This document shows positions 24,554 to 29,160 of a stretch of 64,000 nucleotides of DNA, in pieces. The translations under genes and the position numbers were made by a program. Location: assembly GCA_947260025.1 (NCBI GenBank), contig CAMYON010000014.1, positions 1-64,000 on the forward strand. Direction: 5' to 3'. The notes below the pieces were generated by a model that worked only from the letters and a program-made list of their open reading frames with translations, made no database searches and had not been told where the DNA came from. Origin of the DNA: an uncultured Gammaproteobacteria bacterium. Its GTDB lineage: Bacteria > Pseudomonadota > Gammaproteobacteria > GCA-001735895. How positions within the stretch are numbered: position 1 is the stretch's first letter; every line of letters begins with the position of its first letter.

Positions 24554-24721
24554 GCCATACAGCCATCAGGTTGGATTAAAGACGGTGGCGATTACCTGCC
24601 CATCGAGACAGAATATCGCCGCTCCGGGCCGGTGCGCCGCATTGTCTCCAATCGAGGCTCCAGGCGCAAAGCAATCGTAAGCGAAATTCGCCTCGTTCGC
24701 CTGGATAGGAAGCGAAATCGA

Positions 24722-24840
24722 CCAGGTGAATATTTCACAACTTTTCGGTTATTACTACCCATCGACCAGGGTAATAGCTAACGGAACGATTCCGGCCACT
24801 TGCCTATAGTTCTCCCACTAAAACAAATAGGAGGTGGCCC
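24722..24840 (+). promoter_or_regulatory. Promoter module copy A (shared with 26107-26224)
   Basis: This 119-bp leader is clearly homologous to the leader at 26107-26224. Shared blocks include ATATTTCACAACTT, TATTACT, CAGGGTAAT, GAACGATT, a TATAGT -10-like hexamer (24805-24810) and a strong GGAGGTGG ribosome site. A dyad GTGAA-TAT-TTCAC at 24726-24738 is centred 73 bp upstream of TATAGT, the same distance as in copy B. No good -35 is visible, which suggests activator dependence. Confidence 0.65.
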
Positions 24841-25170
24841 ATGAAAAACCCGATTAGTTACTTCGTGATCAGTCTTTGTCTGGCCTTAAGCCATAATGTG
24901 ATGGCCGATAACCAGGCACCCTCTTTGGAAAGGTGGCAGATGAACATGATTTACCATCCCACCGAGTATGTCTTGGAGCGCGAATCAAAGGGATTCGTAT
25001 TCATATATGACGGATTTGACGAAACCCAGGTGGATCAGATTCTCGATGATAGGTTTGACCGCATCGACCACATGATGTTTACCCGGGTCAAGCTGACCGA
25101 CAGCAGCGGGGAAATTCTGCTGGACCCCGAAACCGGCGAGGAATTAATGGCCGATGACGGCTGCGACTGA
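24841..25170 (+). CDS. Small exported acidic protein of unknown function
   Basis: 109 residues: a signal peptide (about 1-22, cleavage after VMA), then an acidic mature protein of about 87 residues with one Cys at the penultimate position (DDGCD). A perfect ribosome site (AGGAGG) precedes the ATG. I recognise no family. Its promoter is nearly duplicated in front of another small membrane or exported protein at 26225, and a Crp/Fnr regulator lies between them. A good terminator follows at 25206. Confidence 0.8.
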   Translation: MKNPISYFVISLCLALSHNVMADNQAPSLERWQMNMIYHPTEYVLERESKGFVFIYDGFDETQVDQILDDRFDRIDHMMFTRVKLTDSSGEILLDPETGEELMADDGCD

Positions 25171-25205
25171 CCCTTCAGTCTGCCAAATACTGTTGTGCGG
25201 ACTTC

Positions 25206-25231
25206 CCCGCCCCATCGAGGGCGGGATTTCT
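25206..25231 (+). terminator. Rho-independent terminator
   Basis: A 7-bp stem CCCGCCC / GGGCGGG with a CATCGA loop is followed by ATTTCTTTTTCT. It lies 36 bp after the stop of the small exported protein gene. Confidence 0.85.
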
Positions 25232-25317
25232 TTTTCTGACGAATCATTAACCTCCTGTTGGTGTGTTTAGCGGAAATGATGTAATTTAAGCCCGGTAGTA
25301 GTAAGGCAAATAGGGCT

Positions 25318-25968
25318 ATGTTGAGTTTTCTGAAAACAATAACCCCGTATGACACCCTCGATGAACGAGGCCTAGAGTCGCTTGCGAACATCGCTATCCG
25401 CCGCAACTACAAGAAGAATATGGTGATCATACAGCAGGGTGATGATACCAACTCGATGTTCATATTGATCGAGGGAGAAATGCGGGTTTACGTCGAAGAC
25501 GAGGACGGCAAGCAGTTGACGGTCCGCATCCTCAAACCCGGCCATTCATTTGGCGAAGTCGCGCTGATAGGGGAATTCCCCAGAACCGCTAGTGTCGTGA
25601 CAATAACCGACTGTGTCGTAACGGCGTTCTCCCAGGAAAAGTACCTGTCTTTCCTGGAACAGCATCCGCAGATCTCGATCGCGCTCGCCAGGAACCTGGC
25701 TAACCTGGTACGTGATACCACGGAAGAACTCAGCTGCATTGCGTTGTCTGACGTCTATGGCCGCGTTACCCATATCCTCGAGAAATATGCCGTCGAGGCT
25801 GACGATTATCGACTAGTCCCAAAATTTACCCACCGGGAAATTGCAGGCATGATCGGTTCCTCGCGCGAAATGGTCAGCAAGATTCTCAAGGAACTCGAGA
25901 CGGGTGATTATATTTCGGTAACCAGTCAGCATTACGTGATCAACAGGAATCTGCCTGCCAACTGGTAA
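25318..25968 (+). CDS. Crp/Fnr-family transcriptional regulator
   Basis: 216 residues. A cyclic-nucleotide-binding-type beta roll spans about 10-125 (GHSFGEVALIGEFPRTASV resembles the cAMP-pocket loop of CRP, with the Arg kept), then the long dimerisation helix and a winged HTH (about 165-212). The recognition helix GSSREMVSKILKELE keeps the Arg-Glu pair with which CRP reads GTGA half sites. There is no N-terminal Cys cluster, so it is not an FNR-type Fe-S oxygen sensor. It lies between two genes with near-identical leaders, each carrying a GTGMA-TAT-TTCAC dyad, and is therefore the natural candidate regulator of both. Confidence 0.9.
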   Translation: MLSFLKTITPYDTLDERGLESLANIAIRRNYKKNMVIIQQGDDTNSMFILIEGEMRVYVEDEDGKQLTVRILKPGHSFGEVALIGEFPRTASVVTITDCVVTAFSQEKYLSFLEQHPQISIALARNLANLVRDTTEELSCIALSDVYGRVTHILEKYAVEADDYRLVPKFTHREIAGMIGSSREMVSKILKELETGDYISVTSQHYVINRNLPANW

Positions 25969-26106
25969 ACTGCGAGGCTTGCCGGTAGATTCAGATGTCG
26001 TCGGTCCCGGATTCCGAGATAGGGCATGCGGCCAGGGCATTCGCGAAGGTCAAATCGATACTGAGACATTGACCTCGGGTTCGAGGCCTCAATGATACCG
26101 ATCCGG

Positions 26107-26224
26107 CCAGGTGCATATTTCACAACTTCGCCGGTATTACTGCATAACAATCAGGGTAATTGCCAACTGAACGATTTCGATCACTTCCCTATAGTTTTTA
26201 TCTACAACAAACAGGGGGTGAACC
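26107..26224 (+). promoter_or_regulatory. Promoter module copy B (shared with 24722-24840)
   Basis: This 118-bp leader matches copy A through its whole length. The dyad here is GTGCA-TAT-TTCAC (26111-26123), centred 73 bp before TATAGT (26190-26195), and the leader ends in an AGGGGGTG ribosome site. The matching length and spacing over non-coding DNA show a duplicated regulatory module. Confidence 0.65.
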
Positions 26225-26419
26225 ATGAAAAAGCGTAATACAGCAAAGCAACAAAAGGGGTTTTTTGATCTGGGATTCACACTGGCGTTTTTAGCGCTGT
26301 CCGGCACATTCGCCTATGCCGTCGCGCCAGACCAGGACGACAGAGTCGCGCAACAGGAACCTCAGATTGAGGTCGTAGCTAACCTGGAAGCCGGCCAACA
26401 GAACGCTCATCACAAGTAA
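26225..26419 (+). CDS. Small single-span membrane or exported protein of unknown function
   Basis: 64 residues: a basic N-terminus (MKKRNTAKQQKG), one hydrophobic helix (about 14-34, FFDLGFTLAFLALSGTFAYAV) and an acidic C-terminal tail of about 30 residues ending NAHHK. It could be a membrane peptide with a periplasmic tail, or a signal peptide cleaved after YAVA. A strong ribosome site, a shared promoter module upstream and a near-perfect terminator just after the stop argue that it is a real gene. No family recognised. Confidence 0.75.
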   Translation: MKKRNTAKQQKGFFDLGFTLAFLALSGTFAYAVAPDQDDRVAQQEPQIEVVANLEAGQQNAHHK

Positions 26420-26550: not shown

Positions 26551-27272
26551 CTAGAAACTCGTGCCGACACCAAGCATCACTACCCAGGGATCGATATCGA
26601 CGTTGACTTCTAATCGACGTTGACTTCTAAATCGCCCGCGAGGGCCGTTTCCAGATCCGCATCGGTTTCGATGTCGATGTACCAGAGCGAGCCGTTGAAG
26701 AACCAGTCTTCGTTAATATCGATATCAACCCCGGCAACTACCGCCAGGCCGGCTGAATCATCGAGGTCGATATCGGTATCGCCGACGACACCCTCGAGTT
26801 CTGAATCAGCATCCTCCTCGGAAAAAATCGTGTAGTTGATGCCTGCACCTACGTTAGGACGTACGTCGGAATCGGGTTGAAAATAGTACTCCACGGTAAA
26901 AGTGGGCGGGAGATGCTCGATGGTACCCGCATCAACGCCGTCGATGGCGCCCTTGTCTCCCTTAATATCATGCTCGAAGGGCAGTGCACCAAGCACGCTA
27001 AAACCGATATTATCGGTGTACATGTAGGTCAGGGTAATGGCCAGCGAGCTACCATCGTCGACCTCGACACCGGTGTCTGAGAGCAGTTCGACTTCTCCGC
27101 TATCGTCATTTGGCATTACCACTGCCGATCCGAAGCGCACCAGAAAATCGCCGGCGCCCTATGCCATCGCCGGCAATGATGCAGCGCAACAAAAAATTAT
27201 GGCCGCAAAGATATCAAGGCATCGGATCGGGAAATTGATCCCGGTTATGTTGAGTTTACGGATTTTTTCGAT
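26551..27272 (-). pseudogene. ompW: ompW-like outer-membrane protein gene, broken
   Basis: Read on the minus strand, conceptual translation gives a lost start (ATC at 27272 where Met is expected, followed by EKIRKLNITG), a good signal peptide ending AASLPAMA, an in-frame TAG (27161-27159) exactly at the expected cleavage site, then an OmpW-family barrel beginning GAGDFLVRFGSAVV. Near the C-terminus a 17-bp perfect tandem duplication (tcgacgttgacttctaa at 26597-26613 and 26614-26630) shifts the frame into a stop. Removing one copy restores the family ending DIDPWVVMLGVGTSF at 26551. The central frame alone is open (26610-27140 from a GTG). OmpW is an eight-strand outer-membrane barrel. Three independent lesions make this a decaying gene rather than one sequencing error. 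Confidence 0.85.
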
Positions 27273-28014: not shown

Positions 28015-29160
28015 CTAACCGTAAAAATCTTCCCTGAATTGCTCCTGGATCTGTTCCACCTCATCCAGGTTCTGAATTAGCGCATTCACGCAATCCCGAT
28101 CGAGCTTCTCGCCGGCCAGTTTATTGAGTTCCTCGATAGCAGCTTCATTCGACCAGGCGTTTTTATAGGGTCTCGCGCTGGTCAATGCATCGAATACATC
28201 TGCGACTGCAACGATACGAGCTTCAAGGGGAATCTGCTCGCCCTTAATACCCCTGGGATAGCCCTGCCCGTTGACGGATTCGTGGTGGAATTCTGCAATA
28301 TTGCGCAGCATGTCCACGTACTCGATATTCTCGAGCCCGAAGTTCTCCAGAATCTCGTCCACCATTCGCTTGCCCAGATTCGCATGGCTGTGCATGACCT
28401 CGGCTTCGCTATCGTTTAGCCCGGCGGGTTTGAGCAGAATGTCGTCTGGAATACCGATTTTGCCGATATCGTGCAGCGGCGAGAACATGAACAAGTGCTC
28501 GATATAATCATCGTTCAGGCGGTATTTATCAGCGATCGAACTGGCAATTATCCGACAGTAACGCGACATTCGATCAAGGTGACTGCCCGTCTCCGGGTCG
28601 CGTATATGCGTTATGTTACCGGTGGTTTTTACCGCGGCGGTCAACACCCTGATCGAGGTGATTTCATTGATCACCATTAACGAGATCAAGTGACCGTAGG
28701 TATCAATCTGACGCAGCGTGTTCTCGTCAAAAACATCCTTTTTATCGGAATTGAAAAATATGAACCCAAAGAATATGCCGTTATTGAACATCGGCATGGT
28801 ATAGCTCGCCGCGTAACCGTAACGTCCAAGCCGCTTCGAGTGCTCACTTTCTTCTCCTTCGAAGGTAAGCATGTTGTTTATAACTCGCGGTAAACCGGTT
28901 TTCAGAATTTCCTTGAGTGAAGGCGCATCGTCGATCAGGGCACTGTAATGCTCCAGCGGATTATCGTCTCCGCTACTGTGCATGTAGGTTTTCAATACGC
29001 TCGTCTCAGGATCATAAATCGCTATTGCGATGCGGACAATGAACGGGAACAGGTCAGCGACGGATTTGTGGGTTGCCTGCAGTTTGTCCTGCAGCGGGAC
29101 GAGCTTATTAAGTTCCTCGAGTGGATCGTTATGCATGGTCATGTGTTTGTTTAGCTGCAT
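28015..29160 (-). CDS. GAF and HD-GYP domain protein (putative cyclic-di-GMP phosphodiesterase)
   Basis: 381 residues: an N-terminal GAF-like sensor (about 35-175) and an HD-GYP domain with HDIGKIGIPD, HANLGKRMVDE and HHESVNGQGYPRGIKGEQI, followed by RIVAVADVFDALTSARPYK. All metal-binding His/Asp and the GYP motif are present, so hydrolysis of cyclic di-GMP is expected. It has no membrane helix, so it is cytosolic. The ATG at 29160 lacks a clear ribosome site; ATGs at 29142 and 29136 are alternatives. Its partner gene 27316-28005 follows at once. Confidence 0.9.
   Translation of the reverse strand: MQLNKHMTMHNDPLEELNKLVPLQDKLQATHKSVADLFPFIVRIAIAIYDPETSVLKTYMHSSGDDNPLEHYSALIDDAPSLKEILKTGLPRVINNMLTFEGEESEHSKRLGRYGYAASYTMPMFNNGIFFGFIFFNSDKKDVFDENTLRQIDTYGHLISLMVINEITSIRVLTAAVKTTGNITHIRDPETGSHLDRMSRYCRIIASSIADKYRLNDDYIEHLFMFSPLHDIGKIGIPDDILLKPAGLNDSEAEVMHSHANLGKRMVDEILENFGLENIEYVDMLRNIAEFHHESVNGQGYPRGIKGEQIPLEARIVAVADVFDALTSARPYKNAWSNEAAIEELNKLAGEKLDRDCVNALIQNLDEVEQIQEQFREDFYG

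Follow-up and report, generated by a model that had tools for sequence, protein, structure and literature searches.

Two copies of one promoter module, together with the recurrence of its dyad ahead of related genes in other Gammaproteobacteria, point to a small, undescribed gene-control circuit in the window, the 64,000-nucleotide stretch of DNA analysed here. We assign a probability of roughly 0.6 to the reading that both leaders are activator-dependent promoter copies, at which a regulator from a distinct CRP branch would bind an odd-centred dyad and activate transcription from TATAGT. The features concerned were the following:

24719–24843, + strand: leader 1, the promoter module of SP1 (by alignment; 77% identity to leader 2)
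24726–24738: N5 dyad GTGAATATTTCAC, centre 73 bp before TATAGT
24805–24810, + strand: TATAGT, putative −10 of SP1 (read from the sequence)
24841–25170, + strand: SP1, a 109-aa exported-protein candidate of the SP1 family with a C-terminal D-G-C-D
25206–25235, + strand: intrinsic-terminator-like hairpin after SP1
25318–25968, + strand: CRP/FNR-type regulator, 216 aa (Pfam cNMP_binding and HTH_Crp_2; orthologues; tree)
26104–26227, + strand: leader 2, the promoter module of SP2 (by alignment to leader 1; conserved in the relatives G003 and G004)
26111–26123: N5 dyad GTGCATATTTCAC, centre 73 bp before TATAGT
26190–26195, + strand: TATAGT, putative −10 of SP2 (read from the sequence)
26225–26419, + strand: SP2, 64 aa, with one hydrophobic segment (KGFFDLGF...), adjoining the regulator in orthologous loci

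The duplicated leaders and their history

Leaders 1 and 2 shared 77% identity over approximately 127 bp (BLASTN within the genome, E = 5.9e-21), and no gaps interrupted the alignment between dyad and −10 hexamer. The dyad centres were located at 24732 and 26117 and the first T of TATAGT at 24805 and 26190, giving a distance of 73 bp in both. Since the leaders are gapless homologues, this equal spacing counts as one fact, not two. A sequence-only reading had described leaders homologous over their full length, with a shared GTGMA-TAT-TTCAC dyad 73 bp before TATAGT, driving proteins unrelated in sequence. The alignment bore this out, with the correction that GTGA and TCAC are separated by 5 bases rather than by the 6 of canonical CRP sites, and SP1 and SP2 showed no significant similarity (BLASTP, 13.5 bits). 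A third leader copy was absent from the 3.59-Mb genome by BLASTN, the next matches being 14–34 bp long with E > 1. A sigma-70 scan found no sigma-70-like −35/−10 pair at either leader and no usable −35 in leader 1 16–18 bp upstream of TATAGT. A structured RNA leader was rejected, as no Rfam match exceeded the gathering score. By their alignment, the leaders are supported as a single promoter module in two copies.

Whole-genome motif scans were done by pattern search. The string GTGMATATTTCAC occurred at two sites only, both in the leaders, and GTGAANNNTTCAC had, besides leader 1, five exact sites, all within coding sequence, one of which overlapped the start of a slyX-like gene. The local regulon in the window genome would comprise two genes: the regulon proposed earlier gained no further members in its own genome, and found partial support in the recurrence of the dyad across Gammaproteobacteria. 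Neither the N5 strings nor the 13-mer was found in any paper in the literature searched, which held nothing else of relevance.

Leader 2 was 93–95% identical to its counterparts in G003 and G004. A leader-model search of 31 genomes of the genus gave convincing scores only at the regulator/SP2 locus, with two exceptions: in G016, a single leader copy stood away from this locus, at C96:247, and in G020 (C304), a relic leader was joined to apparent downstream sequence of SP1. Strong leader matches were confined to eight genus genomes with a window-type regulator.

In the window, the terminator-like hairpin separates SP1 from the regulator. Among the genomes holding a regulator orthologue, only the window genome had an intact SP1; in most relatives, sequence resembling the SP1 3′ end and its downstream region was located just before the regulator. 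SP2 adjoined the regulator at every orthologous locus on a contig long enough to include it, and the genes flanking regulator and SP2 differed among most of the seven relatives. In G016, G027 and G020, a DUF1127-like gene lay between regulator and SP2, preceded by a related, leader-like promoter that also carries the dyad (GTGAAnnnTTCAC, GGGTAATTGACAAC, TATAAT); its similarity to DUF1127 (12.8 bits) was below the Pfam cutoff. This gene was observed at L056:2570–2794 and L059 (reverse) 1320–1553, and was missing from the window genome. Leader 2 was more similar to leader 1 (75% identity) than to the promoter of the DUF1127-like gene (56–58%). In G016 and G027, relics located ahead of the regulator resembled the leader 1/2 type. 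Leader 2 is therefore probably a copy of an SP1-type leader that replaced an older promoter and gene, probably in the lineage from which the window genome, G003 and G004 descend.

Two further observations concern the surroundings of SP2. In relatives (L055, L056, L058), SP2 was followed by a conserved 80-aa ORF (ERVYLHSIGRFSKLKK), which was absent from the window genome. An OmpW-family gene (26610–27140) had no clear signal peptide and only fragments matching it in G003 and G004; it looks like a decaying gene.

The regulator and its branch

By its domains, the regulator is assigned to the CRP/FNR superfamily: PF00027 (cNMP_binding, N-terminal beta-roll) scored 88.6 bits (cutoff 27.5) and PF13545 (HTH_Crp_2, C-terminal winged HTH) 38.2 bits (cutoff 27). 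The recognition segment, GSSREMVSKIL, agreed with the earlier description of a CRP-like regulator with an Arg-Glu pair between the leaders. Orthologues were found in seven other genus genomes (68–92% identity), and the region upstream of the regulator itself held no such dyad in any orthologue. The motif FGEVALIGEFPRTAS would be compatible with cAMP binding; the G075 member has Cys in place of Arg.

The branch to which the regulator belongs was set by a profile search (E ≤ 2.9e-54, nearly full length), in which generic CRP/Vfr proteins scored E of about 1e-41 to 1e-46. Its recognition segment was SREM[VI]S[RK], versus SREM[VA]GR in generic CRP, and Arg-Glu was kept in the recognition helix of every sampled member but one. 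Reading of the GTGA half-site by Arg-Glu is established for E. coli CRP, and since the branch has the same pair, it would be expected to read the same half-site. The closest known systems, E. coli CRP and P. aeruginosa Vfr, share with it the cNMP-binding and Crp HTH domains, the Arg-Glu pair and GTGA/TCAC half-sites, and the upstream site seen here would be consistent with class I activation. Unlike CRP/Vfr, the branch formed a separate clade in the tree (support 100/100) and had an LPxxW C-terminus in most members; against the NCBIfam CRP equivalog PRK11753, the window regulator reached 115.8 bits, below the cutoff of 266. The canonical CRP site is TGTGA-N6-TCACA, with a 6-base gap, whereas the gap between GTGA and TCAC was 5 bases in all leaders; assuming that the dyad is the target, the regulator would have N5 sites there and in seven upstream regions of SP1-family genes. 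Sites of CRP-family regulators are, as a rule, regarded as even-centred, their half-sites being a set distance apart, and an odd-centred N5 palindrome is unusual for the CRP/FNR family.

The window genome also encodes a generic CRP match and a branch paralogue on contig C35, with a similar type of recognition helix, and the leaders could be bound by one of these, the local gene being a mere duplicate. We consider this improbable: generic CRP prefers N6, and the C35-type paralogue was found in nearly every genus member, whereas strong leaders were present in eight only.

An HD-GYP gene was observed 2 kb from the window regulator (28015–29160) and a GGDEF gene beside the G323 regulator; c-di-GMP could be involved. 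Clp-type CRP homologues of Xanthomonas respond to c-di-GMP, and the present loci resemble them in combining a CRP-family regulator with c-di-GMP-type genes nearby, the G323 GGDEF gene with a dyad of its own. The phosphate-binding motif of the branch, in comparison, was mostly cNMP-like (FGE...PRTAS).

The dyad upstream of SP1-family genes

The SP1 family (A4) had invariant motif residues and a C-terminus of mostly D-[GD]-C-[DE], and no Pfam model matched it above cutoff. It was present in 8/41 genomes of the GTDB family and in 15/369 sampled genomes of the class. A structure of SP1 predicted from the single sequence (pLDDT 41) was not usable. SP1-family genes (24841–25170; L133–L141, L180–L199) often occurred several per genome and repeatedly adjoined a transcription regulator, either of the CRP branch or of the Trans_reg_C-TPR type.

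In the 250 bp ahead of 35 SP1-family members, GTGA-N5-TCAC occurred seven times (shuffled mean 0.10, maximum 1), and six of the seven dyads were located 111–138 bp before the start. Among the other spacings, N6 occurred twice and N8 once, while N2–N4, N7 and N9–N11 did not occur; the reversed control gave zero in the same 35 regions. A matrix trained solely on the genus leader sites found six further SP1 upstream regions at scores of 15.8–19.8 (G075 twice, G381, G323 twice, G398), all with the site at −111 to −138; the 1% level of the null was 11.7, and the top of 1,980 shuffled maxima was 15.8. The 13-mer GTGAATATTTCAC itself was present in G075, a member of another family, 111 bp ahead of an SP1-family gene. 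All four genomes with matrix hits contained the regulator branch. In G141, G356, G339, G166 and G235, the branch was present, yet no strong N5 dyad was found upstream of SP1. Because the dyad recurs at a similar position before SP1 genes elsewhere, far above chance, its status as a conserved element is supported by these comparisons.

This bears on whether the leader duplication has any regulatory meaning. The leaders are gapless homologues whose equal spacing alone proves nothing, they have been copied, and SP1 has been lost repeatedly, so that conservation might reflect common descent only. We regard that explanation as very improbable: the dyad was kept, though shifted by 1 bp, between leader types only 48–62% identical, it recurred in other families where the remaining leader was unalignable, and both the N5 enrichment and the matrix matches in SP1 upstream regions disfavour it.

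A second element, CGTA, was located 50–51 bp from the dyad centre in four SP1 promoters, and 49 bp from it at the GGDEF gene beside the G323 regulator (L202:357–1478), a promoter not used in defining the element. CGTA at 49–51 bp was found at 5/120 N5 dyads scanned, namely in these five promoters only; the element was identified post hoc in four of five promoters, two of which are paralogues in one genome. The distance of 49–51 bp differs from the 73 bp seen here by about two helical turns, which is what a dependence on the helix face would predict.

Regulator branch and SP1 also occurred together. Branch genes adjoined SP1 genes in three families (the window genome, G075, where the regulator lies between two SP1 genes, and G398), and the branch was present in 11/15 genomes with SP1 versus 3/20 without (Fisher p = 0.0012; p = 0.006 without the three query-source genomes); it was not detected at the threshold used in four genomes with SP1. 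Inside the genus, regulator and leader are linked by synteny, and their co-occurrence there is not independent. In the G398 regulator (L180:2426–3067), the recognition Glu is replaced by Ala, and the dyad at −131 upstream of its SP1 gene has one half-site changed to TTGAC (GTGAATAATTGAC). This is possibly a coupled change, a single suggestive case.

It is unlikely, though clearly less so than the alternatives above, that a genuine dyad is recognised by some other dimeric regulator, with its gene elsewhere, and that the neighbouring CRP-like gene has different targets. The odd-centred N5 palindrome would fit such a regulator, as would the counts of GTGAANNNTTCAC across the genus (81 versus 29 for the reversed control, approximately 2.8-fold), which were no higher in genomes holding a window-type regulator than in those without. 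Against it stand the adjacency of the same branch to SP1 in three families and their co-occurrence, the GTGA-reading type of the branch recognition helix and, as a suggestive instance, the paired G398 changes.

Eight Pfam-confirmed loci had a Trans_reg_C-TPR regulator beside an SP1-family gene. These CadC/ToxR-like loci share with the present one a regulator encoded beside SP1, but the regulator family differs and the SP1 genes there were mostly without the N5 dyad; control of SP1 genes therefore seems to be divided among two or more types of regulator. The SP1 genes at L135, L139 and L133 (12278), which lie next to Trans_reg_C regulators, had another upstream element in common, approximately GTCAGGTGTTTAT near TATAA, with ACCTGA downstream, so the family may also have promoters of a second type.

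Proposed circuit

In the circuit we propose, the regulator at 25318–25968, and possibly the C35 paralogue too, would bind the GTGAA-N3-TTCAC dyad as a dimer. Relative to the putative transcription start, the dyad centre would be at approximately −85 here and approximately −64 in the promoters of other genera, again about two turns apart. The bound regulator would recruit RNA polymerase to the weak −10 TATAGT by a class-I-like contact; activation rather than repression is suggested because the dyad is upstream and a −35 is missing. A nucleotide or another signal may gate the regulator. Its ordinary targets would be SP1-family exported proteins, and in the genus the module would also drive SP2, or the DUF1127-like gene at the same place in relatives.

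The dyad resembles two CRP half-sites shifted 1 bp closer together, which could separate the circuit from housekeeping CRP/Vfr, itself encoded in genomes of the same kinds. More tentatively, and at somewhat less than an even chance, the SREMVS/LPxxW branch as a whole may read GTGA half-sites set 1 bp closer, be insulated from CRP and control the DGCD family across the class. If true, the altered half-site distance would illustrate how paralogues that share their recognition residues avoid cross-talk, and the circuit would provide a first starting point for the widespread but unnamed SP1 family, whose small exported proteins are repeatedly encoded beside transcription regulators.
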